From Branchiostoma lanceolatum (taxonomy: Eukaryota > Chordata > Leptocardii > Amphioxiformes > Branchiostomatidae): 64,000 nucleotides of DNA. The notes beneath the pieces are model-generated. The model saw only the letters and a list, made by a program, of their open reading frames with translations, ran no database searches and had not been told where the DNA came from. Where the stretch lies: positions 12,095,501 to 12,159,500 of the forward strand of contig NC_089727.1 of NCBI RefSeq assembly GCF_035083965.1, written 5' to 3'. The first letter of the stretch is position 1; each line of letters begins with the position of its first letter. This document shows, piece after piece, positions 10,374 to 37,341 of this stretch. Both the position numbers and the translations under genes were made by a program.

Positions 10374-13300
10374 ATGAAGTTTTCTTACAAGGTGAGTTTG
10401 ACGATTTCTAGTTGTATTTATCTGTTGGGACCTGCTGAAATTGTTGCAAAAGCAATGTACAGGTCTTGTAATCAAGTTGTCTATTGTTCTAGCACTGGTC
10501 ACTTTAGGTTTGAAAAAACACTGGGAGAGTCATCTCGATTTTAAGCCATAGATTGCAACGTTATGTACAACTTCAAGTATGTTAACTAAACATTATTATC
10601 ATCAAATTATAATATTATTGAAATAACAACTTCAACTAGCTTTCTTCTGTTGAAATAATAGATTATAAGGCGTGAAGATGATAATAACATGTTCCTTCCT
10701 CTTGTTCTGTTAGTTCTCCAACCTGCTGGGTTCAGTGTACAGGAGAGGAAATGTCAGCTTCACTCCTGATGGCAACTCTATCATCAGTCCTGTGGGGAAC
10801 AGGGTCAGCATCTTCGACCTCAAAAAGTAAGCCAGGAGATACATGAATTATGGTAGTATCATAATTATGATTAGCCTGGGTCCCATCCTAGTTAGTTTAC
10901 GGGGGCTCCTATTCAGGCTTTTCATTTAATTATAGTGTTTGATGACAATGATTATCATGACGTCAAAGCCTCTGTGCTCCTCCCTTACAATCGTAAGTTT
11001 GAAGTTGGTAAGGGGTGAGTATGGGATCCCCGCTAAGCTAACTACTATGGCACCCAGGCTAAAGTATGATAATCCTTAAAAGTCAGACGCAGTTGTATGG
11101 TCCTACCGATACCATAACTATATAGTTTAACATCAACGCCTTAACTTATTATAGTCTCATAAAGAAACTCTATCAAAAATTAAAACATCAATAAGCCCTG
11201 TTACAGAATTAAGATGTTAATTGTTTCCTGGCAGTAACAAGTCCGAGACACTGCCAGTGGAGGCCCAGATGAACATCGTATGTGTTGCACAGTCTCCTGA
11301 TGGAAATACTGCTATTCTGGTAGATGAAGGTGAGTGATATGGATACGGTTTGGCTACATGGAGTTTGAATGTGTCACAAATCAATGGAAGAGATTACTAA
11401 TTCACATGCTAGTCATCAATGGACACATGTAATGGTAATCAAAACCTTATTTGCATAACTGATTAACTATAGACATATGAGAAACTCTAATATTTCATAG
11501 AGGCATTAGGTCTCTAACCTTTTGACAGAGGTGTGACATGAAAGACCAAACAAAATCTTAAGCATCAAATAATGCTTTGAAACGTTTATGGTAAATTGAT
11601 AGGTACCTTACAACATTTTATGTATCTTTTTTTGGCTTGCAGTTGGGGCAGCACTACTGGTGAGCCTTGTCAGTAAGTCTGTCCTGCATCACTACCATTT
11701 CCACAAGCCTGTACACACCGTCAAGTTCAGCCCTGATGGAAAGTGGGTATATTTCTTTATTTTGTAATACCTATAAACCATTGCAAAGCAAATAATGACA
11801 TTAAGTGCAATAACAAAGGAGACATGTAAAAGTAGAAAATATGTCTTAACCCTTAAGCTGCCAGTCCCAGTTTAAACAGGGATACAGAAACATGTCTTAT
11901 GTGCTGCGCCTGGTTATAACCGGGATAGGGTATTCCCCACAAGAAAACAGAAAGCTTTGCGTGCGTGTAGCGCTCGAGGCCCGGATGTTAGGGCGTTATG
12001 GACGCTGGCTGTTTCGCGGGTTTCGTGAGGGAGGTCAGGGTCAAACATTTTTGATTTTTACTTGCCTAAAAAACCTGGCAGCTTAATATTACTAACAGCT
12101 GTGCAAGTCTGTGTCCTCAACCATAGATGGTACATATATAGCTTACAAGTGTTCCATCCTGTTGCAAGAAAAAGTTAACAAGATCAATATCTTACCATTT
12201 GAAAGTCAACCCCTATGCCCAATACCACTTATTCTTAGTATTTTATCAATATCAGTCACTTAAAAATGATGATGCCGTTTTTTGTTAACAGAAAGTTTGC
12301 TGTGACCCGTGAGAACCACACGCTGGTGTACCACGCTCCTGGGAAGACGCACGACTTTAACCCCTTCCGCCTATACCGGAGTTACCACGGACCTTATGAT
12401 GATGCCACCTGTATCGACTGGACAGATGACTCCAGGTAAAAATTAGATTCTAATACAATGCTTTTTTTAAAACTTTGATTTAGGCACATTTGGTAGATTG
12501 ATGCAGCATAAAAAGAAACTGAAAGATCAAGTTACAACAGGGCGCTCTCTATGCTATAAAAATGATTATGAAAACTAGAAAGGCAACATTTGCGAGCAAA
12601 TACAGCATGTTTAGCCATACTCCTCGCCATGCAAAAATGGACTCTCTCAAAATAACAATGGACCATTCTAAAATACTTCCACTAAAAAAAATGGATCAAA
12701 ATTGAGTTTAAAAACAATTATCAGTCTCTCCATACAGGAATGGAGTCTTCCAGTAGCACATCAACACAATATGGACCAGTCCAAAACCATTTGGTAGATT
12801 GATGCAGCATAAAAAGAAACTGAAAGATCAAGTTACAACAGGGCACTCTCTATGCTATAAAAATGATTATGAAAACTAGAAAGGCAACATTTGCGAGCAA
12901 ATACAGCATGTTTAGCCATACTCCTCGCCATGCAAAAATGGACTCTCTCAAAATAACAATGGACCATTCTAAAATACTTCCACTAAAAAAAATGGATCAA
13001 AATTAAGTTTAAAAACAATTATCAGTCTCTCCATACAGGAATGGAGTCTTCCAGTAGCACATCAACACAATATGGACCAGTCCAAAACCATATCCACTTA
13101 TTAATTAACAAATACACTTCTGCTAACAAATGGACTTTTTCATAATCATTCCAGCTCAAAATTGAAAGAAATAATTACAGAATGCTCCCCTTGCAAGAAT
13201 GGGATATTCCGTGCCATCTCCATGTAAACTACACCAGTGGAAAAATATCCGCTGAAAATTACACTCTTGCGCATAATCAACCCAGTTCAAAATTGAATGA

Positions 13301-16300
13301 AAAAAGGTCAACCCCAGGGAAGAATAAGAATGAAGTTTTCCATAGTATACATAATGATATATATGAAGATTTGACAGGAGAAGAAGGAAATGACCAAAAA
13401 CAACATATTTCAGCAATAGTATGGGTGAAATATAAAAATGTGACACCCCTTTGTTTGAATGCATGATTCAATAGTATATACACTTCGGGTTGAAAATAAC
13501 GAAACCAAAAAATTCTTTGTTTAAAAAATTGTTTTGAAAGGCTGTATGGCAAACATTTGAATGAGGGCCTGTGTACATACCAAATTTCACATTATTTTGG
13601 TCTAATACATGTAGGAACTGGAGATGTGTATCTTTTTTTTAAAAAGAGTGAACAAAGCCATGTAATCACATGTCCTAGGGATTCCCATACCATATTTGGC
13701 ATGAATACTAGCCTACACCTGCGCCAGAAATGCAAGATAATTAGATTAACTCAATTGACCAATCAGGTGGTCGCAAGGCTCACAGGCATGCAAGGCCAGG
13801 TGCAAGGCACTTGGGGTCACTGACCTTTAGGTCATATGTAGTATTGAAAGTGACAGAAGTGGCAAATATTGTCAAGAAAGCCCAAAATAAATCGTTTTGA
13901 AGATATGTATGCCAAAAATGGGAATGTAGTCCTTTAAATATTTGTTCAAGCCACATATACAGCAAATTTCAGGTCATTCGGTTGAAATACCAGGGCGCAG
14001 GAGGCCAAGATATGCTAAAAATAGCCTAAAAACCTCAATAAAATCACTTTCAAGGTCAATATCAAAAAAAAGGAAAAAAAAGCACATTGGTTTTTGCCTA
14101 CATTACCTCTGTACTAAATTTCAGGTCATTTGGTCAAAAAATGACAGAGATGAATCGATTTGAAGATTTGACAGGAGGAGGAGGAGGAGGAGAAGAAGAA
14201 ACATGAGTAAAAACAATATGTTTAGCCATACTAGGTATGGCTAAACATAATAACTGTCATGTTTTGCATAATGTCTGTTAGTGGCCGTAGAATAGTTTTA
14301 AAGAGACTTGTTACATGTACATGTTGTTTTTCTAACTTGTCAACAGAGCCTTTGCAGTAGGCAGTCGGGACATGAACACACGTGTGCACGCTGCGACAGC
14401 CCTACAGAACCTGGCAGTCTACAGCTTCGGGGGACACAAGGATGCCATTGTGGGCTGCTTCTTTGAGCACAAGTCTTTGGATGTATCCTTAAGGGGGCAC
14501 CCCCTAGTTTATTTTGGGTCTCAATTCGAGTTTGCACACCCCTAAGTCTAGCGACCGTCCCTTCCAGGAAATACTTCTGAGCCAAAACAACTGTGAATGG
14601 GAATGAAGGCTATCCCTCTAGCTACAAGAAAACCCGAGTTTCGGTTTCTTCAACCTTTGTAATGTTAGTAAATATAAGAGGGAAAAAGTATTTTTCCGTC
14701 AAAAATGAGGCGCAAAATTTGGCATTTTCCCGTGGAACTAAATACATCACAAATTTTTTTGACACGAAAATGACTGTTAGTGTCAGAAAGAGAAAACTCC
14801 AAGGTATAATCAAGCCCATTATAAAGAAAATCCTACCTCTGTGATTTTCACAATAACCCGACGCGCGAGGTAATGCAACACGGCCGAAAGAACGCAACAA
14901 AGGTCAATCGGGGTCGACTGGGCAGTTTACCTTCAACGCGTATGGATATCCGGAAGTAAGGCTCGGATCGAAACGCAATTTCCACCCAAAACACACCAAT
15001 TCATACGCTTTTCGGCCATGTTAGTATCTAATGTCAGTTCGAAGCACATTTTGAGAAATGTGAACTCAAACCCAGACCCTCGAAACCCTTTCGTCCCTTT
15101 TTTGTCGCGGACTACCATGGACCACTGTCGCGGAAGAACTGGTGCGTGCACCGTTAATCAATGATACATTGATTTATTGATATTTGTAACTTGTTTGGAT
15201 AATCTAACAAAGTCTGTAAAGACAATAGGAACTTTTGAGCAAAAAGTCCATACTGTAAAACTATAAAACTGATGACAATACATGTACATGTATCATGAAA
15301 TACAATGTAGATGGATGAATGGTCTTTCTATTGACACATTGCCTTTAATTAATATAAGCTACATGGTGAAAGGCAAGGCCTAAAGCTAATCATATTGTCC
15401 AAATCCCCAATATCTGTTCAAATTGAAATGGCAAGTGGTGTATTTTGCTGAAGGGCTGTTATACTGGCTACATAGATACAGATACAGACAGGAATTGAAA
15501 TTGACCAATAGAAGTCAGAAAGATACAGTTGACATTTATAGAAACAGCTTGTGCAGATATAAATGCCTTGCAATTGTTTGAGCTTTTGACTCAACCTAGT
15601 TTTGATGGCTCACATTTTTTTGATACATATGACCCTTGACCTACCTGTTCAGTTGTACACAATCAGTCGGGATGGTACCTTGGTGATCTGGGAATGTGAC
15701 ACTGACCTGGATGATCTTGTTCCCGGGTCAGCACGACCAAAAAAGGAGAAGGAAGTAGAAGATAAGGTCAAAGAAGAAGATGACTCTGAAGGTCAGATAC
15801 CCTTAATCATTGACATATCTTTTTGGTGCATTTTCTCATGGAGTTCTTTTTGGCAAATTTGTAATGTAACATTTTCAGCTTCAATACAATATCTTGTCCT
15901 TTACTGTTTCATTGATGCATTTTGTCATTTAACATTTTTGGTATGAATTGGATTTACAGAAAGTGATGAGGAAGATGACGACAAAGACAAGCAGGAAAAG
16001 ATTCTGTACAAGAAAGTTTCAAAGTGAGTATACCATTGATAAACTTGATCAATTGAAACTCTGTTGTATATTAATAGACAAAGTTAAACAGCTTCTGTAT
16101 GAATAGTAATGTCTGCCTTTTCTTTAACTTTCAGGCATTACTTCAATAAAGAAGGTGACTTCAACACGCTGACGTCATGTGACTACCACAAACGGACCCA
16201 CTTCCTGGTGACGGGGTTTGCTTCGGGCATCTTCCACCTGCATGAGCTACCTGACTTCAACCTCATCCACTCTCTCAGGTGTGGTATTGTAAATCAGGTG

Positions 16301-19300
16301 TAAACAGGTGTCTCTTACATTGTATCAAATACACTGGGAGCCTCATTTTTAGATGTTTTTAAGCTATTTGGAGATGGATATGTAGGTATGACAAGTTGCT
16401 TTAAGGTATAAACCCAGCTGCCACATGTTGATGTGATATGTTGAAGGGTACTTATACTGGCTCAATTATACAGATAAAGAAAGATTTCTTTTTCTTGTTA
16501 ATACATAGCATGTGGTGTTGTTTGTAGCATGACCAGAGCAAAATGAACACTGCAGCAATGAGCGTATTACATGGTAATGCTGCATAGATGAAGATACTGA
16601 ACAGCAAGATTTATGTGAATTATAATAACACTTTGTATTGTCCCTCCAGTATTTCTGACCAGAGAATAGCATCAGTATCCTTCAACTCTACTGGAGACTG
16701 GATTGCACTGGCCTGTTCCGGTTTGGGCCAGCTGCTTGTTTGGGAGTGGCAGAGCGAATCGTACGTCCTGAAACAACAGGGACACTTCAACAACATGTCC
16801 TCATTAGCATATTCACCAGACGGGCAGTACATTGTCACAGGAGGAGAGGATGGCAAGGTAACCTTTGAACTTTGGAATACTTTAATTGTGATCTTGCTAG
16901 ATCTTGAGTAATGCTGCATGGTATGTGTATGTAGGATCTGAATGGTAGATTTGGATGTGCAGATATAACATTTACAATTCAAACTTTTGATTTGATAGAA
17001 ACAACCATGGCCTTCTACATGATAACTGACTCCATTGCTTTGGTCAGGTAACTTTAAATATAGACATGTGACATCAGTCATGGGTCAAAGGTGCCTTGGA
17101 GTCAAAATTGTCCTCAGTCTTAATTGGTTGAGTAATTCCTATTAACACTGATGCATATCTTCCAATAGGTGAAAGTTTGGAACACGGGTAGCGGCTTCTG
17201 TTTTGTGACCTTCACGGAGCACACGGCGGCCATTGCTGGAACCATCTTCACCTCTAACGGGCATGTGGTGATCAGTGCTTCTCTGGACGGCACAGCGAGG
17301 GCATTCGACTTACACAGGTAACATAGTGCACCTTCCACCCTTTTGTTAATTTCTTTTACACCATCTTTTGTTAAGAGGAGAAGCAGTAGAATTGAACTCT
17401 TTTGAAACCTGCCGCCCTGCATGGCCTACAAATTAGAAGCTTACCAGCTCCTTTGCTTTCTCCATTTCCCTGAAAACAGAAAGTTTTCTTAATCATTTGA
17501 ATGTTGAGAGATCACTTGAGACGAAGTGTTAACTATCTCTAAGATTCAGCAAAGTGCATGCTTTCTAACCTTTGCCCTGTGTGTTCTCCAGATACCGTAA
17601 TTTCCGGACATTCACGTCTCCGCGCCCGGCACAGTTCTCGTGCCTGGCCGTGGACCACAGCGGGGACCTGGTGTGCTGCGGCGCTCAGGACATGTTCGAG
17701 ATCTTTGTGTGGTCCATGCAGACAGGAAGATTGCTGGAGGTGGGGGACTGTTTTTTTAAATTCAAAATTCATTCATCATCTGGTCTCCTTGGCGATAATG
17801 TAGCAGTTTCTTTAGTTTTCATAACTGACTGTCAATAAAAAGGGGCTGCAACATACAAATGTACTTTAAGATTAAAGAAAATGTGGATGAATTTACTATT
17901 CTATTGTTATACAGGTTCTTGCTGGTCATGAAGGTCCTGTTGCCAGCCTAACTTTCAGCCCAGCAGATGCCATTTTGGCTAGTGCATCCTGGGACAAGAC
18001 AATAAGGGTCTGGGACATCTTTGAGCGCAAAGGGTGTCGGGAGACTCTACAGCTGGGGTCAGATGGTATGTTATAGATGTGAATTAATGTCAGTCCAGTT
18101 TTAGCTCTAGCTCTTTAACATAATTTTGCACTGTTTGTCACAAGACATGTACCATATGCTATGTGCAGCATATATAGGTTCATTGTATCATGGAAATAGG
18201 TCCCCCTAGCTTTTTTTGACAAGTTTAATGAGAAGTGGACGATGACTTAATGTGGGTCATACACCTATGTCATGAAAACGGTGGTCACTTTTAGATTTGG
18301 GAAGACGCTAGAGATACAGAATCTTGAATTCTAAAATCAAAATGTCTGTGTCTTCTTTAGCCCTGGCTGTTACGTTCCGCCCCGATGGAAAAGAGGTTGC
18401 CATAGCGATGTTGAGTGGAGAGATTCAGTTCTGGGACCCGCACAATGCCACGCAGACAGGCAGCATCGAAGGTCGTCACGACCTTGGAGCAGGGAGGAAG
18501 GAAACTGACAAGATCACTGCCAAGACGTCTTCTGCTGGGAAGTGAGTTTGTGTCAAGGAATAACTTTCAAGGTCACAGTTTAGGCCAAACAAACTAAAGT
18601 TTTTGAATGACATTTTTTAGGAGCTCCAAATTTGATGCAAGTTATGTAGATAAAATTAGCTTGTTTTGTAGTAGGAATATTTTGCATCATTATTTTCAAT
18701 TACACCATTTTTTGATTGAATTTTTAAGTTTAATTTCAATCAGTTCAAATACATAGCAAATAATCACCAAATAAGTGTTTACAAGTAACTAAAGGTGAAT
18801 TTAGAGTGTTTTGTTTTTATCAAGGCAGAAAGGACCGGACTGAATTTAGCATTTTTCTCTTGTTGTCTTATGGGTAGGACACTGTGGGATATAGGATACT
18901 GATACATGTATTATTTGTTGTTCCCAGGTCCTTCTCCTCCCTGTGCTACACAGCAGATGGCACCTGTATCCTGGCAGGAGGGAGGAGTAAGAACATCTGT
19001 ATCTACCATGTGGCAGAACAGCTGCTCATCAAGAAGTTTGAGATCTCCTGTAACCTTAGCTTTGATGCAATGGAGGTGGGTTGACATGTTACCCTGATAC
19101 CTTTGAACATACATGTACAGTTTGGTATAACACTCACTCAGTGTCTCCCTTACCTTATTCAATTGACAATGACAAGCAATGATAATACATAGTTCATCTG
19201 TGTTGGTATACTAAGACAAGGTATTCTTGTCAATTACACACCAGGGAGAAGATTGAATAATGCTTTCTTCCTTCATTCAACATTTTAAGCAAGATTAACG

Positions 19301-21035
19301 ATTGTTCTGTTTTCCTTTTCTTCAGGAATACCTGGACCGGAGAAAGATGACAGAGTGGGGCAGCCTGGCACTGGTGGATGAAGGACAGGAGGAGGGGGAG
19401 GGGGGCAAAGCCATCAGCTTACCCGGGGTCAAGAAAGGTCAGTTAGGAACTACCATTTTCTTTACCTCTACCAAGGAGGGCATGTTTTTGGAAGGATAAA
19501 TGAAAAATATATCAAAGTTTTTCTTTTTAAGTGAGAGGGTAGGCCAGTTAGTAACAACTGCCTTGTATCTTGTCTTACTGCAGGTGACATGGCGTCTCGA
19601 CACTGGAAGCCCGAGGTCAGGGTGTCATGTGTGCAGTTTTCTCCTACAGGTACTGCAGACATTCCTATTTTTAAAATCATTTTAAAAAACATGAATATAA
19701 ATCATTTCTTTTGGTTAACAAAGCTTAGCTGTCTGCTGTATCTACATGTATTTCAATAAGGTCTGCTCTACAAGTACATTGTATTTCCCCAATCTCTCCC
19801 CCAAGGTCGTGCATTTGCCACCACCACTACAGAGGGTCTCATGGTCTACTCCCTGGACAACAGTTTGACCTTTGATCCATTTGACCTTGACATGGACATC
19901 ACTCCAGCAACCATCAGGAGGATGCTTGGAAGGACAGAATATGCTACAGCCCTGATGATGTCATTCCGGCTGAACGAAGGAGCTGTGATACAGGAGGTGG
20001 TAGAGACCATTCCACACACAGAAGGTAGGGACAGCATGATATAAAAAAAAAATTCCGTAAGGTTTTGGCCATCACAAGATGGAATGTTCCCAGTTGGTTC
20101 TTTATTGAGCTCAAGATATGGCTGGCATTGATTTCGGATAATTAATATTTTCCAGTTTCCCATGTGAGCCAGATGTTACCGGACACCTACGTAGACCGGA
20201 TGTTGCTCTTTGTTGCCAGTCAGTTGGAGACATCACGGCACCTGGAGTTCTACCTTACCTGGTGCCAGACACTACTGATGTTACATGGACAAAGGCTGAA
20301 GAACAGGTGTGTGGGTGTTTATGTTCATACCTGTGTGTGCACATTTGTCTGTTGTCAATTAGAAATGTCAATACACCTGGAGTTCTACCTGACCTAGTGC
20401 CAGACACTGCTGATATTTGCAAGTTTGTGTTTGTGTATCTGTGCATGTGTGTATGCACATGCATAAAGCTTTAAAGGTAACAATATTTCTCAATTCTCCC
20501 CCAGATCCATGTCAGTGTTGGCCATGTTGAGAGCACTACAGAAGAGCGTTACAAGGAGATATGAAGACATTAGCAAATTGTAAGTAAAGAGAATTGTGAA
20601 TATTTGACAGCTTGAAATTTAGATATCACTGTTTCTGTACTGCATGTGTCCATGCATAGGTGTGTGCTTGATCAGGGGTCTGTGTGCATTTCAGGCAATG
20701 TATTCTGACCTAACCAGAATAATTTTTTCTCAGTACATCCTCTAAATGGCCCAAACTGACATTTGATTAACAGGTCTTGGGTTGTGTTCCTAGCATGCAC
20801 TTTATAGTATTATCCATATAATACATGTCTAAACTGTACTTTTCCTCCCAGGTGTGACAGTAACAGGTACAGCCTGCAGTACATCCTGTCAGTGGCACAA
20901 CAGGAGGGCAGCAGGAAACGGAAGGCAGGAGGGGACCAGGAGGAGGGAGAGGGAGAGATGGAGGAACTTCCAGATGAGGACTCCTCCCTACAGATGTCTG
21001 AAGATGATCTCCCCATGCAATCACACCACATCTGA
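10374..21035 (+). CDS. PWP2: Periodic tryptophan protein 2 (PWP2), U3 snoRNP / SSU processome subunit
   Basis: Twenty-one exons join in one frame of 914 residues (human about 919): 10374-10391, 10714-10826, 11235-11329, 11643-11742, 12292-12435, 14347-14482, 15653-15791, 15960-16023, 16135-16278, 16650-16857, 17169-17317, 17592-17739, 17915-18065, 18361-18541, 18928-19075, 19326-19437, 19584-19649, 19806-20024, 20156-20306, 20505-20579, 20852-21035. Family knowledge: a UTP-B scaffold protein needed for 18S pre-rRNA processing in the nucleolus. Seen: start [22 protein letters not shown]40 repeats through about residue 650, e.g. [20 protein letters not shown] and [13 protein letters not shown]; an acidic loop at about 225-265 between propellers; a helical C-terminal domain with HLEFYL; and an acidic tail. 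Introns 5 and 6 are enlarged by repeats. Ends converge on MRPL22. Confidence 0.97.
12487..13089. repeat. 301-bp tandem duplication in PWP2 intron 5
   Basis: Two adjacent copies, about 12487-12787 and 12788-13088, line up at a constant offset of 301 bases. I see only two differences (GGGCGCTC versus GGGCACTC, and AATTGAG versus AATTAAG), so the duplication is recent or kept similar. It overlaps the start of the repeat element described at 12574-14249. Confidence 0.9.
12574..14249. mobile_element. Repeat element copy 1, ending in a 33-bp palindrome
   Basis: It begins near CTAGAAAGGCAACATTTGCG and ends with a perfect palindrome at 14217-14249 (15-base arms around TAG; arm TATGTTTAGCCATAC). Shared blocks with the copy at 51697-53213 are GAGCAAATACAGCATGTTTA near the start, AAATTTCAGGTCATTTGGTC before the end, a purine GGA/GAA tract, and the palindrome. 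No convincing protein is encoded; the open frames at 13182-13466 and 13557-13823 are AT-rich and unlike known families. Confidence 0.7.
14483..15652. other. PWP2 intron 6, no gene seen
   Basis: This 1.17-kb intron has a block of different base composition (about 14490-15160, more GC and CG dinucleotides) that looks like an inserted repeat, but I find neither clear terminal repeats nor a coding frame. Confidence 0.5.
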
Positions 21036-25724: not shown

Positions 25725-28305
25725 ATGCGTCGGCCGAGACTACCCAGACGACCCCCGGCAAGCCGGGGCGAGAGAGGCCCGTGGATAGAGTTAGCTTGGA
25801 CCGCCATTTTCCTGCTTACTGTCGCTTCATTTGGCAAGGGTAAGCTTGTGCAGTTTTGTGTCGTTGAAAATTATCTCACTAACCAAGATATCATGTTTTG
25901 TTTTATCCTATCATGTACTTATGTGATCAATTATTGATCAAAGAAATGTAAACATTACCTTTACCCAGGGCACATTTCCCACGATGAATGTTTACCCACG
26001 ATATGGCCCTATATGTTTGCTTTACCTTTAAAAAAAATAAGTATACTCGCATGATTTCTCTAATCAATATACCAGCATGTAACGTTACCAGTATTTGGAT
26101 GTGGGGTTACTGGGGTATAATCATAGTGTCGATCAAATAAATCCATTTGTTGACTGGGGAAAATAGTAACGAGTTGTCCATTAAGTCTCAACAGTTATTC
26201 AGAAGAGCGTGTCGGAGAACTAGACCTTTTCCGGGTGCTTAGTTTCTCTGAAAAATTATTACCCTACTAGACCAACTTCTGCTATTTTCTCAGTCACCAA
26301 GTCAATCTTGTGCATGTAGAGGCCAGTGTCGCCGTATGATCGATATAACGATTGTTTTAGCATCATGCATATTTCTAGCCTCCTTGTTAGGCTCTACACG
26401 TGGGCTTTTGGGTGTTGATAATATTTCTCATATTCTTGTGTTAACCGAGTCCAATGTAACTGACATGATATATCATCCGAAAAAAATTATAATCACAAAA
26501 AGGCCAACTCGTATAGTCTGCTTAAGAGGCTTCATGTTTTCTTTCAAACACCGCTGGTATCTCAGGGGAAGATAACGTAGACTGCTACACGGCGGAAGAC
26601 CAAGGCGCGAGTTACGTCGGCACGGTCGACGTCACCATCAACGGACTGGCGTGCCAGCGGTGGGACGCGCAGAGCCCATGGGTGAGTACAGCAGCTGTCA
26701 CCATGGAAACGGGAGAGACACGATGTCGATGTTGGTGCTCAAATATTGAACAGAATGAGTCAGGTCCCCAAAAAAACGTAGCCTCGGAGTTCAGCCTTGT
26801 TAGCTTTGGCCCGCCGCCCAAGATCCACTAGTCCGGCAGGCACCTGGCAGGCTAATGGATTTTTTGGGCGGCGGGCAAAAGCTAACAAGGCTATCAAGGC
26901 TGGACTCCAGGCTACAAAAACGGACTGAAATGACTCATATCTTTCAGCGATAATGGAAGAAAGAACAGGAAATACCGTGTTATCAACGCATGTGTCAGTG
27001 TCCTGTTATGTCCGTTTGGTTCTCTTGTAACGGTAGCCTGGAATCCAAACCTATTATAGCTCCCGAGTCAGACTCGGGAGCTATAATAGGTTTGGATTCC
27101 AGGCTAATGTAACGGCCCGGTCACATTCGTCGTAGGTGATGTCGTACAATTTTCACGGCAGGCCGTGACAGAAACGGAAACTGCCGACAAGGATCTCGAC
27201 AGCCTTCCGAAACAAGATCTAGATAGCTGAGTAATGTTCGACACATACACCGACAATCTCGGTACAATGATCGTTAATTGGACGTATGTGATCGGACAAT
27301 GACACTATTTTGGCGATCTCATAATAGCAAGATGCATGCATTTCATTAGATATACGTATACATACTACTAAAACGCAATAAATGCTACAGAAACGTAAGC
27401 TTTTACGTATCAGGATAGGCCGTTGTATCTGTCCTAAAGGATGATACAGGCTTCGCAGGCATGGTAGCCTACTGTATTACACATTAGTTGTCACCCCAAG
27501 CTCTGTAGACGCAAGCCTAGGCCTTCCTCCCCCTGTAGACCCATCGATGGGATCCGTCGGATCATCCCGACAAGAACCTGACCAGTAACTACTGCCGGAA
27601 CCCTGACGACGGAGCCGGACCCTGGTGCTACACCACGAACCCGGACGTCAGCTTTGAGTACTGTAACATCTCTGTCTGTCCGAATGGTGAGTACTGTAAC
27701 ATCTCTGTCTGTCCGAATGGTGAGTATTGTAACATCTCTGTCTGTCCGAATGGTGAATATTGTAGCATCTCTAGATCTGTCTGTCCGAATGGTGAGTATT
27801 TTAATTGTCTGTCTGTCCGGATGGTGAGTATTGTAACATCTCTGTCTGTCCGAATGGTGAGTACTTTAACATCTGTCTGTCTGTCTGTCTGTCTGTCCAA
27901 ATGGTGAGTACTGTAACATCTCTGTGTGTCCGAATTGTAAGTATTGTAACATCTCTGTGTCCTGAATGGTGAGTACTGTAACATCTCTGTCTGCCCGAAT
28001 GTCTTGATACAACAGCGACTACTGCCCTCCCTACAACGACTACGATGTCAACAACAACTACACTGGCAACAACCACATTTGCAACAACGACCACAACGGC
28101 AACAACAACTACACTGGCAACGACCACAGTGGCAACAACGACCACAGCGGCAACAACGACCGCAGCGGCAACAACGACCACAGCGGCAACAACGACCACA
28201 GCGGCAGCAACCACATTGGCAACAACCACCACAGCGGCAGTAACAACCACAATCGGCAGCGCAGCAACACCCGGGACAAGCACAGGTTCAGTAATGCACT
28301 TCTGA
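25725..28305 (+). CDS. Secreted kringle-domain protein with Thr-rich mucin-like tail
   Basis: Four exons: 25725-25839, 26566-26681, 27539-27686 and 28016-28305 (stop TGA), giving 222 residues. Residues 1-38 have an Arg/Pro-rich start then a hydrophobic run (AWTAIFLLTVASF): a signal peptide with a long n-region, or a membrane anchor. Residues about 44-127 form one kringle with all six cysteines (VDCY, LACQRW, NYCRNPD, GPWCYT, FEYCN, SVCP), split by a phase-0 intron. The rest is Thr/Ala-rich repeats, a likely O-glycosylation stalk. Kringles bind protein or lysine ligands in extracellular proteins; the partner here is unknown. An AATAAA at 28370 supports this end. The exon-3 donor lies in a minisatellite that copies it. 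No symbol can be assigned. Confidence 0.85.
26778..26915. repeat. Foldback (inverted-repeat) sequence in kringle-gene intron 2
   Basis: The left arm begins GTAGCCTCGGAGTTCAGCC and includes GGCCCGCCGCCCAA. The right arm includes TTGGGCGGCGGGC and ends GACTCCAGGCTAC. The arms are complementary with a few mismatches around a loop of about 40 bases. Probably a miniature inverted-repeat transposon. Confidence 0.75.
27034..27106. repeat. Perfect 73-bp palindrome
   Basis: Two 36-base arms meet around a single A. The outer end is TAGCCTGGAATCCAAACC and the centre is CCGAGTC-A-GACTCGG. No mismatch is seen. The same outer sequence, diverged, is at 32641-32732. Confidence 0.95.
27651..28001 (+). repeat. 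33-bp minisatellite that repeats the kringle exon end and its splice donor
   Basis: Unit GTGAGTACTGTAACATCTCT followed by GTCTGTCCGAATG. About nine or ten copies run on from the last codons of kringle exon 3. The first two post-exon units are exactly 33 bp (donors at 27687, 27720, 27753); later units vary in length, with GTCT expansion near 27880. Most units keep a good donor ATG|GTGAGT. Confidence 0.92.
28040..28250 (+). repeat. Coding 18-bp minisatellite (Thr/Ala-rich stalk)
   Basis: Units related to GCAACAACGACCACAGCG repeat through exon 4 of the kringle gene and encode TTTTA/ATTTTA-like blocks. Variants place Leu, Phe or Val at the spacer positions. Confidence 0.9.
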
Positions 28306-28369
28306 TAGGAGTAACCAGAGTGGCACAGTAAGAGGGACCCCTCAAACGAAGAATTGTACTTAACTTCTG

Positions 28370-28375
28370 AATAAA
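28370..28375 (+). terminator. Kringle-gene poly(A) signal
   Basis: AATAAA 65 bp after the stop codon at 28305, followed by TTTCTTTC. It supports a four-exon gene ending here. Confidence 0.75.
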
Positions 28376-31789: not shown

Positions 31790-34700
31790 ATGGAACTTCT
31801 GGCTGCAGTCCTGATTCTCCTGGTTCCAACGGCCCTTGCACAGGGTAAGTAAATCTTTCTCTACGTTGTAATAGTCTTTGATTGTTAGTAACGTCTTCAG
31901 CAATGTTACGTTAACATATGGATGTCAGAGAAAGTCGCCAACGAATGGTCAAAAGAGTAGAGAGAGTTTTCTCATCTCCAAGTAGATGTATGTCTTTGGT
32001 TCATTTATACTTTTCTGTAGTCTTTTTCGTGTGGCTGTTTTATCCATTCGGGATGACCACTGTGAGTAAACATATGCCATAAGTAAGTACTTCTGAAACG
32101 AACAGGAGACGTAGAGATGAAGCAACACCGACCCACTCCTTGAAAATCTGTAGGGGATTTCGGATGACATAGCCTAAAGCATACATATCACAAAGCATAA
32201 CTGTATTTCATCAAGCTTACAAACAAACAAACGGCCTTTGTTGAAAGTTGACCAGAACCATGCCATAGCAATGTATCGATTATCGATAGAACAGTCCGTA
32301 TAACACTACTGAGTCCGATCAAGAAGGTCTTTGGTCCGACAGCATTTGAATTTATATCTTGGAATAGGTGTGTTTCATAAAGATACCTACATGCTCCTGT
32401 GCGGGTTGATCAAACCAATCAGTCGCTTAAGCAGCTTGTAATTTTTAAGGTATGGTACACGACGAGAGCGTTTACCCGGCTTTGTGGTGCCAAGCCACTA
32501 TGTAGAAGCATGAATGTGAGGGAAGTGCTAATACTAATAGCTTTTGTTCCCACACAACAAAAATGTTTCGAATTTCGACTGTCCGTACCGCGGTCGTCAT
32601 TACAAATCACCGAGGACCGACGAACAGATAAGATTTCATAGCCTGGTATCCAAACCTATTATAGTTCCCGAGTCTCTTCTCTCTATTGGAGGAGAGGAGA
32701 CTTCGGGAGCTATAGTAGGTTCGGATACCAGGATTAAGTTTTCCAGCTGATGATGAACGTTTCCCACAGGCCAGTGCATGAACCTGTCCCCGCTGTGCGG
32801 CCAGAGCCCCGGCTGGCCCGACCCCGCCCTGTGTTCAGCCAACTACGTCAGCTCCAACTGTCAGGAGTTCTGCGGAGGATGCAGTAAGTCACGATTCTTA
32901 CTTAACTCTACCGGGATGTTGAGTTTAACATCAAGAAGACCTATGTATTGTTTATGCATGGAAAAATGAAAATTGCACTATGTACCATTTGAAAGAATAC
33001 TTTAACATATCTACAGTTTTCTTCACTATTGAAGTGGCCAATGTTTTCCTTTCTTATTTTTTATAGTTCTTGTCCGATTCAACTAAAAGATCGTATTCGT
33101 AATCTGACAACCGAAATATCAGTTCAGACTAGACAGGTTGAATTCGAAATAGAAATTTTTGCTTGTTAGTCAAGAAATGACGCATATGCATGCCATTATG
33201 AATTAATAACTTCCATATCAAGTTCACCAAAATCGGATCTTTGCTACTGTACTGTTACCGCTTTGTATATCTTTGACTCTGAACTGGTATGTCTTAGATT
33301 TGTATTGTAAGTCGAGTGTGGATCCAATTAAACTTGAAATAACTCCCCCCCCCCTTTTCTCCCGCCTAGCCTGTGACGCTGACCCGCGCGGCCCGTGCCG
33401 TAACGGCGGCACGAGAGGAGGGAACCCGGACAAGTATGGGACCCACACCTGCGACTGTAACTGTCCCGCGCCATGGGTGGGAGATCTGTGTGAAGGTCAG
33501 GAACCTGGCGAACTTTATCAGTACTGCATCATGTCATGCGACGACAAGTACACTTTATATCGTGAGAAAACATGTACAAAAAGAGCAGGGTATTGTGATG
33601 ACCTTTAGGATATCCTCACATGACTAAACTGTAAGTTGTAAACATTAGGGAAACGTTGCCCAGATACAATGTACTATCATTTTGTTCGGTCTCAGCTGGG
33701 AGGTACGCATAGTGTTCTCAAAGTTTCTATGGGTAGAAACGGACTGTGGTGTATAGTGACCTTAAGTTGATTCACTTGAAGATAGGGGGTCGATGCGAAA
33801 AGATAAACTCTGTGTGGTCGTTCGTGCATGGTAACTTGAACTGTACATTGTTTGCTTATTACAACAGAAGTAGGTGCATGTACCCTTTAGTAGATTAACC
33901 GTGGCAAAGTTCACCACGACTTATCGCTCCTTTGGTGATCGACTTTGCCCTCTACGATACGTAAAAGCGGTAGTGTGGGGTGAAAATGTCAAGGCGAATG
34001 AAATAGGTTATCATATGAATGACGAAACGTCACATGTGTACAGCCACATATTTCTCAGTTATTTAAAAACATTTATATGAAATATGACAAGATGGCGGAA
34101 GGCAGGAAGCGGAACTGGGCGTTTCTGTCACACATGCGCAGGTTTCTTACATTCACAAACCCAGAGGACCTGAGACGCGGGGTGATTTTGCAATACTAGG
34201 AGCAAGAGTCAGAAAGTCCTGATATATACGATTTTTTTTCAGGACTTCACCCGTCAAATTGTAACATAAAGCACGACGGTATCAATAGGCAGTAGTATTG
34301 GGCAACCTCAAGCCAACCGTACACACTCACGCCGTATCTTCAGAAAAGACGCTATAGCCGCATAGTCTCTGTTTAAGACTTTATTCAAGCCCACATCCAG
34401 ACTAGTTTCGCCTTGGTGTGGCTTTCTCGATGGTATAAGGCTGCCTTGGTGTGGCTTTCTCGATGGTATAAGGCTTCTTGGTGAAGGTTCTTGGGCTGGT
34501 GTACAGGATCTCCACGACGGTATCAGATATATATAACCAGAAGGTGAATAGGGATTTAAAGCAACTTTTACAATGTCGATTTATGAGTGATTGTGGTTTT
34601 CCCCCAGTGTGCACTGCGACTTGTTTCAACGGAGGCGTGGTGGACCAGACGACATGTTCGTGTCAGTGTGCTCCTGGTTACTTTGGCGAATATTGTCAAG

Positions 34701-35029
34701 GTGAGGCGAGCCGATATTGTAGGCTTTGTCCGCGTCTACTTGACTCTTAAGGATAGTCAGAACGATACGATCAGAGTACATTTTACTACAGTGCCATTAG
34801 ATTACGATCAAGGTGAACAAGCAAACTTGTCGACATTCATTCTTGATGGCATTACCGTCTTACAGTTTCTCTGTGCAATAGATGAAGACAATACTTTTCT
34901 TTCTCCACAGATACATGTAAGAACCTGGACCCGAAGTGCGGTGCGAGCCCCGGGTGGCCTTTGACTTCCATGTGCGCTGACTATGTCCTGGACCTCTGCC
35001 CGGAGTTCTGTGGAGTTTGCAGTAAGCCA

Positions 35030-35104
<75 letters not shown>

Positions 35105-37341
35105 GTGCGTATCTGCGAGCGGTAGGCCTTGACCCAAGGAGAAAGTAAATATTCACTTTCTCCTTGGGTCAAGGCCTACCGCTCGCAGATGCACACACAC
35201 ACACGTTGTGAGAAAGATTCTGGGACGCGATCCGGAAACAGGAACATTTCCATCAGTATTTTTAGCTGTTGGCAGACATGTAGCCACACAAACCCGTGGG
35301 ATCCACTGCCCTGCATGGTACAAAATGCGGGTCAGGCAACCTTACTGAAAACGTCGGACTGGAGGGCTGACGGTCGAATGGCCAATCACTTAGGGCACAT
35401 GACATCATGCATTTCTCAACATGGACGGAGGTATGAATTCGAACTTATGACCACTTCTGACCAATCGCTGATGTCATGCGTCCCAGTAGGGTCACGTGCC
35501 CTAAGTGACCGATCATTCGAACCTGGCGAAGACTGCAGTGTCCTTAGGGCCTGAGTGTCCTCTAAAATGTAAACTGACAACATGGACGAAATTTCCAGCT
35601 GAAATGTATGTCTTTACGTTGCTAGGTTGTGACGACGACCCCAGAGGCCCGTGTTTGAACGGCGGCAGTCGCGGCGGGAACCCGGCTCTGTTCGGAGACG
35701 ACACCTGCAACTGTAACTGTGCGGGAAACTGGATCGGAGAGAGGTGTGAAGGTGCGTGTCTTTTCCGTCAGCATTCTTTAGTCAACAACATGTATGTGTA
35801 TATGAGCAAACTGAATAGTTTCCGACTTATCTAAGTTTGATATGTTAGCATCACTGTTCATCTATTCCTCGTTTTCTCCAGTGTGCGGTGTGCACTGCGC
35901 CAATGGTGGGACCCTGGACCCCGTGAGCTGTACCTGCGCATGCGCTGACGGCTGGGACGGTCTATTCTGTCACGGTAGGCATCGAAAGATAAAAATAACC
36001 TGTCAAAACAATAGTTTGTGTTGATCAAGTGCTTCAATTGTATTATCATAGGAAACAATTGGACAACTTTCCCTTTATAACTACATTTAGTATCTTTCTC
36101 GTCTTCTTCAATGTAGCACGTCGATCACTATCCTGCCTACAGTCAACGCTACAAAATTGAAATGGCGGATCGATCGGTTAACGTCCTTAGTTTTGCCAAC
36201 TTAATGCCAAATGGCATATGCATGATCAACTTTTACATGCTTTTTTTCTTACTGTAAGTTCCTCCTTACAATTCTTGATGTCGGTCGTAGGCTTTTCTCG
36301 TGTGCATTATAGAAGTGAAGTGAAGCAAACTTTATTGCTCAACAATCGTACATGGTACAATGTATGGCATGAAATAAACAATCTGTTCTACAAGGCTAAT
36401 CTATCCTACAATTCTAAGTACAAAATATTTTCGAAACCAGTGTATTTGTTACAATATATAGTCATGTATGGGTAATTCTGTCTCGCTTTTCGAATGATCA
36501 CGCCGAAACCGGAGGCCAGATCACAGGCACGCACGCCTTAACCACTACGCTAAAAGGTCGCGACCAGTTAGCCTGGTCAGTTGGAGGCGCTTGAACCCCC
36601 ACTGTTACACTACTCCCCCTTTTCTTTTTATTATAGAAGAAGAACTTTATTGCACGACAATTGTACACGGTACAACGATTAAACATGTCTGATTATATCT
36701 GATTTTATAACTTCATGTTCTACTTGCTGAGTGCCCAGCCAGACGAGTTCTTTCTATGCGTTCTGTGCACAGTTATAATGTTTATTGGTCTTCACTTGAC
36801 GAGTGTTGTATGATCAAATGATGTCCCGGCTGCCCACAGCGCCATGTATCGACTCTAATCCCCTGTGCGGCGCCAACCCGGGGTGGCCTGACGCCAGCAT
36901 GTGCAGCACGGACTACGTCATGGAGGGCTGCCACGCCATGTGTGGCGTCTGCGGTACGTAGTCTTTGCCAAAATCGTAAATGAGTTGGGTGTAAAAGGCC
37001 TTAAGAAGTTAATTTGTTGCGCGCTCTCGGCCCCTATATCCCTTTGCAGGATCACAGGGATTTAGAAACCTTGATAGATAAACTGAAACGTAAAAGAGCC
37101 TAAGGTCGACATATTCTTAGATAAATTACATTGGATGAACCGTAACTATTCTATCGAATACTAATTCATCAATCGTTCAACATGTTGATAGATCAATTGA
37201 TCGATTGATCGATTGATTGACTGGCTGAATGACTGACTGACTGACTGGGTTCTTGATCTATCAATGAAGCGATTAATTTTGTCCTTACAGCCCTGGTTGA
37301 AGGCTGGATTGATTGACCGGGCAAATGATAGACCAATCGAT

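Follow-up and report, generated by a model that had tools for sequence, protein, structure and literature searches.

A mirage-like minisatellite across the boundary of a kringle exon and its splice donor in Branchiostoma lanceolatum

In the window analysed here, a 64,000-nucleotide stretch of Branchiostoma lanceolatum DNA, positions 27656-28001 contain ten tandem copies of a 33-bp unit, an array confirmed by TRF and by alignment of the copies. It adds a case to kinds of repeat already described in lancelets and in an interferon gene of humans. We consider it likely to be an amphioxus 'mirage' minisatellite that fills an intron, with the donor at 27687 serving as the main donor and the later donors being mostly passive.

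We propose that the array began as a tandem duplication of a short segment running from the 3' end of a kringle exon into its donor; the copies would then have expanded until the phase-1 intron behind the kringle was nearly full. The array would now provide this intron with many donors, and probably also with its branch region and pyrimidine tract. In most transcripts the donor at 27687 would most likely be joined to 28016 to give a 222-aa protein, and the later donors would be mostly passive, with occasional use of 27720, 27753 and 27792 adding 11 to 35 residues.

The host gene and its surroundings

The host is a Branchiostoma gene for which at least four coding exons are predicted; one kringle is split between two of them, and the last is Thr-rich. 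The gene model was built with two database proteins as guides: P0001 ('LPA', B. lanceolatum), the nearest protein, which has 7 differences from the window in its first 126 residues, and P0002 (a B. floridae x B. japonicum record), which differs at 26 of 126 residues from the window and at 25 from P0001. All of its features lie on the forward strand. The coding part of exon 1 (25725..25839; MRRPRLPRR...VASFGKG) matches the N-terminus of both proteins, contains a hydrophobic N-terminal stretch, and ends in phase 1 before GTAAGC. Kringle exon A (26566..26681) is flanked by an acceptor CAG and a donor GTGAGT, ends in phase 0, and encodes the first kringle half with cysteines 1 and 2. Kringle exon B (27539..27686, 148 nt) encodes cysteines 3 to 6 and ends in phase 1 (AAT G/GTGAGT, the slash marking the boundary), and the tblastn match of P0002 to this exon stops at 27685. 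The last intron is predicted to be 329 nt long (27687..28015), with boundaries taken from the reading frame and from the P0001 and P0002 models, and is followed by a Thr-rich tail exon (28016..28305) with a TGA stop at 28303-28305 and by a likely polyadenylation signal, AATAAA, at 28370..28375.

The joined protein contains a full Pfam Kringle domain with six cysteines (PF00051; 3.3e-25; 88.7 bits where the cut-off is 34.3; profile positions 3-79 of 79), and the Pfam search found no other domain in it. Its best PDB matches are the kringles of plasminogen and HGF, with plasminogen at the top, among the best 60 of 91 distinct sequences matched. With the first donor the product would be a 222-aa kringle protein with a Thr-rich tail, probably secreted or anchored. 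A tblastn search of the window for more kringle exons returned only the gene's two exons and three array copies, all else having E values of 1.8 or higher.

The tail exon is open in three frames (95, 104 and 75 codons), as would be the case for a stop-free simple repeat, and apart from the Thr-rich frame there is an Asn-rich frame with a stop at 28329 and a Gln-rich frame with a stop at 28241. The tail repeat (28016-28330) is thus readable as Thr-, Asn- or Gln-rich, and P0001 and P0002 read different frames. Beyond the stop of the window gene, a segment at 28684-28788 matches the C-terminus of P0002 with 57% identity and one internal stop, suggesting that the floridae x japonicum model either runs on farther downstream or ends in a different exon.

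Several other features of the window were noted. The intron between the two kringle exons contains inverted repeats at 27027-27113 (43-nt arms 1 nt apart) and 26793-26892 (29-nt arms 42 nt apart), which are possibly MITE-like elements. Upstream of the kringle gene there is a PWP2-like gene (10714-21032, forward strand; a WD-repeat protein of the small-subunit processome), and a 301-bp segment present twice in tandem with approximately 99% identity (12487-13091) sits between its exons at 12287-12436 and 16133 onwards. P0129, a B. floridae PWP2-like protein, shows several residue differences from the window inside the aligned PWP2 exons, which speaks against B. floridae as its source. P0001, P0002 and P0129 together place the array locus in Branchiostoma, and by protein similarity B. 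lanceolatum or a close relative is likely. Downstream, the open reading frame list includes frames at 33210-33608, 34472-34750 and 35505-35834 whose cysteine patterns we read as EGF-like.

Anatomy of the array and its donors

The exonic copy of the unit with its donor GT (copy 0, 27656..27688, forward strand) reads GAG TAC TGT AAC ATC TCT GTC TGT CCG AAT G followed by GT, 33 nt in all; a first-pass annotation of this DNA had described the unit as the end of the kringle exon plus its donor, and it does consist of 31 coding nt, namely the final ten codons and one further nucleotide, and then GT. Nine further copies follow on the same strand (27689..28001), the first eight of which end in a donor GT that is absent from the last. 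The copies measure, in order, 33, 33, 33, 39, 32, 33, 47, 33, 32 and 31 nt, and the length changes fall mainly in their TCTG-rich middle. Copy 1 (27689-27721) is identical to copy 0, copy 2 differs by one base, and copy 5 equals copy 2; the remaining later copies are more divergent, and identity between copies ranges from 60 to 100%. The TRF rows over the array include 27655-27885, 27671-27988 and 27888-28001.

The array is far above chance. The lag-33 identity of 27656-28001 is 0.591, whereas 1000 dinucleotide shuffles average 0.267 and reach 0.396 at most. GGTGAGT occurs seven times in the array, but in the shuffles 0.052 times on average and never more than twice. The sequence ATGGTGAGT is found eight times in the 64-kb window, seven times on the forward strand and once on the reverse, and all seven forward copies lie inside the array, the first being the exon's own donor. 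Of the 329 nt of the predicted last intron, 315 (96%) belong to the array, and the source of the intron sequence is therefore recognisably exonic, these nucleotides being copied from the exon end and its donor.

The exon itself contains the word TGAGT (codons E-Y), which resembles the donor GTGAGT and precedes the real donor by 33 nt; exon B reads TTTGAGTACTG, and the next copies have GGTGAGTACTG or a close variant at the matching place. This shared short word could have begun slippage or unequal exchange, but the present identity between the exon and the start of the intron is itself a result of the duplication and cannot prove how the duplication began. The residues EYC are found at the same place in three of nine aligned PDB kringles (two of plasminogen and one of HGF), and the word is thus not peculiar to the lancelet gene. 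At the other end, the last copy places TGTAAC and a TC-rich run near the acceptor at 28015, within its reach, so that the array probably supplies the branch and pyrimidine signals; the acceptor CCGAATGTCTTGATACAACAG is pyrimidine-weak (9 of 17).

A donor scan found nine GTs, one closing each of the first nine copies, at 27687, 27720, 27753, 27792, 27824, 27857, 27904, 27937 and 27969, and the tenth copy is without a donor. Seven of the nine (and so seven of the ten copies when all are counted) retain the 9-mer ATG/GTGAGT intact, and the two deviant donors are those at 27753 (ATG/GTGAAT, weakened) and 27937 (ATT/GTAAGT). The first-pass annotation had placed the donors at 27687, 27720 and 27753 in one phase, which the scan confirms, but had given the next unit as 38 bp with loss of frame directly after 27753. 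The distance from 27753 to 27792 is in fact 39 bp and the fourth donor is still in phase; the donor-to-donor steps are 33, 33, 39, 32, 33, 47, 33 and 32, so that the frame is kept through 27792 and is first broken at 27824. The geometry by which later donors would remain in frame with the tail exon therefore holds for four donors, one more than had been claimed, and translation of the unit gives the anticipated 11-residue block with two cysteines, GEYCNISVCPN.

These four donors, all on the forward strand, are GTGAGT at 27687..27692, which leaves a phase-1 intron and is the predicted main donor; GTGAGT at 27720..27725, which adds 11 aa and contains a second GT at 27724; the weakened GTGAAT at 27753..27758, which adds 22 aa; and GTGAGT at 27792..27797, which adds 35 aa. 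Joined to 28016 they give proteins of 222, 233, 244 and 257 aa that end in the Thr-rich tail, which is thus in frame for four of the nine donors. A Gln-rich tail results from the donors at 27824 (247 aa) and 27857 (258 aa) and an Asn-rich one from that at 27904 (303 aa), and the frames leading to 27937 and 27969 run into a stop 32 and 64 nt ahead of the junction. A message whose stop codon lies in the last exon escapes decay, and this should apply to the seven donors of nine that place the stop there.

Two further ideas were considered and set aside. One mini-intron per unit was rejected, since eight of the ten AGs in the array are GAG or AAG within the donor hexamer; and we make no claim for selection on decoy donors despite the seven intact 9-mers among nine donors, as the copies and changes are not numerous enough to support one.

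Donor choice and alternative readings

The seven intact donors score equally with a donor matrix, and the 33-nt units preceding the donors at 27687, 27720 and 27857 are 97-100% shared; with donors and preceding units nearly identical, local sequence gives no preference for the first. A literature search found no paper that lays down how equal donors compete. Published mirages are nevertheless said to be spliced normally.

The two database models point in different directions. P0002 joins its kringle to its tail as CPN/VTTAVPTTTT, where the window spliced from 27687 to 28016 gives ATTALPTTTT, and the residue at which P0002 leaves the kringle fits that expected from the donor at 27687. P0001 carries one extra unit, CPN-GEYCNISVSPSG-DDYCPPYND, and then continues in the Asn-rich tail frame, a layout that is reproduced in the window by joining the GT at 27724 (GTGA/GT, inside donor 2) to 28016. 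The extra unit and the Asn-rich frame would, if the model is based on reads, speak against a dominant first donor and suggest that a later donor region is used there. However, the extra unit has VS where copy 1 has VC, copy 8 of the window (27939-27970, KYCNISVS) also has VS, and the best tblastn match of P0001 runs to copy 8; the extra unit thus need not be copy 1, and the B. lanceolatum source of P0001 may instead carry fewer copies. The extra unit seems to favour weakly the first-pass reading that later donors add blocks, the weakness lying in its being a gene model and in the unusual donor GTGA/GT. A search for longer homologues with the repeated block passed 307 proteins, of which 120 were listed, with lengths of approximately 280-890 aa (P0001 and P0002 fall outside this range); those 120 of 307 have mostly plasminogen, HGF-like and other kringle names, and P0084, a B. 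lanceolatum plasminogen-like protein, is the sole Branchiostoma name among them. If P0001 belongs to the BraLan3 set, as we suppose, it comes from models described as merging RNA-seq assemblies, protein alignments and Augustus predictions (PMC9673378).

The array could alternatively be a protein-length module, in which later in-phase donors are regularly used and copy number sets the number of 11-residue, two-cysteine blocks, a reading we consider rather unlikely. Four donors yield complete in-frame proteins, with copies 0 to 3 keeping the frame, and the P0001 model contains one extra block. Yet a unit length divisible by three arises by chance in one case of three, the fourth donor is reached with a single in-frame indel (+6), the third has decayed to GTGAAT, and the protein support would consist entirely of gene models. 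All six cysteines of a kringle are normally paired, and the extra blocks would add two cysteines each beside a complete six-cysteine kringle and compete with its disulphides, which argues against abundant use. Isoforms that human IFI6 is reported to make by using downstream repeat units as donors (PMC4526556) show that such a mechanism is possible, but the published mirages, as reported, are spliced normally (PMC3087553, PMC3902484). There is also a slim chance that the donor array selects both the length and the tail frame of the kringle protein: the outcomes by donor are four Thr-rich (with 0, 11, 22 or 35 extra residues), two Gln-rich and one Asn-rich, and the models differ likewise, P0001 with an extra unit and an Asn-rich tail and P0002 with no extra unit and a Thr-rich tail. 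If true, copy-number change would switch the C-terminus of the kringle protein within and between species.

It is similarly improbable that the array is a recent intron, born by tandem duplication of exon sequence (a Rogers-type gain), even though exon-derived repeat makes up 96% of the predicted intron. Kringle modules are usually bounded on their downstream side by a phase-1 intron, so the intron was probably present before the array; moreover, P0002 joins its kringle to the Thr tail at the same residue, though a protein cannot reveal an intron, and the array stops just short of the acceptor CAG at 28015. Precedents for intron birth are a model from globin genes that predicts new introns made of mirage repeats (PMC3087553) and a multiplied 24-bp exonic segment spanned by introns in fission yeast (PMC4974935). 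An assembly or gene-model artefact, in which the true allele has fewer copies and the extended P0001 is an annotation error, has a chance slimmer still. Short tandem arrays can be misassembled, the B. floridae draft contains an aberrant assembly of a globin mirage (PMC3087553), Augustus prediction contributed to the BraLan3 models (PMC9673378), and the P0001 layout needs the odd donor GTGA/GT in the window sequence; but 60 to 100% identity among copies would be hard to produce by stutter, and P0001, an independent record, also holds a second unit.

Seven donors with the same nine bases in one short intron offer a ready-made experiment on positional choice by the spliceosome among equal 5' splice sites, and three of the seven also stand behind nearly identical 33-nt units. 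With four donors in phase, the outcome of splicing is readable from protein length as well as from RNA, and an intron almost wholly copied from an exon can inform models of how introns arise and turn over.

Comparison with known repeats and kringle proteins

The closest likeness is to the amphioxus mirages, Branchiostoma tandem repeats that lie over an exon-intron boundary and of which many copies bear splice signals (PMC3087553, PMC3902484). They are described in the globin genes BflGb6 and BflGb9, with Adh3 cited, and their units measure 150-160 bp in these globin genes and 10-72 bp in Adh3; 6 units are present in one BflGb6 haplotype and 3 in another, Adh3 is cited as somatically unstable, new introns are proposed to contain mirage repeats, and copies with splice signals are suggested as possible cryptic sites (PMC3087553). 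TnC and PGBD5 have been added to the list (PMC3902484), and in the accounts of both papers amphioxus mirages are spliced normally (PMC3087553, PMC3902484). The array described here likewise has a unit that spans an exon-intron boundary, as placed by the frame and by P0002, and splice signals in many but not all copies (donor GT in nine of ten, GTGAGT in seven of ten). Relative to the passages describing published mirages, it is set apart by a 33-bp unit equal to 11 codons, by four donors in one phase, by filling 96% of its intron, and by the presence of the unit inside an annotated protein, P0001.

In human IFI6 (6-16/G1P3) a minisatellite also provides multiple splice donors, although gene and unit are unrelated to those studied here. 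The IFI6 unit is 12 bp long, and the primary paper on this minisatellite is reportedly that of Turri et al. 1995. Two downstream repeat units are described as being used as donors, giving three mRNA species (PMC4526556), so that donor use is reported in IFI6 and predicted here. Intron gain by tandem duplication has been reviewed, including the fission yeast 24-bp case, and the AGGT segments of SPOG_01682 and SOCG_00815 are similar to our array in being codon-multiple exonic repeats with an intron across several copies (PMC4974935). In the AGGT model, as presented there, the duplicates supply both donor and acceptor, whereas in our array the acceptor lies outside and eight of ten AGs belong to the donor hexamer. 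The host protein, finally, shares six cysteines and the Pfam Kringle domain with the kringles of plasminogen, apolipoprotein(a) and HGF, its best PDB match being plasminogen, and differs from these proteins in having a single kringle and a low-complexity tail with no other Pfam domain.
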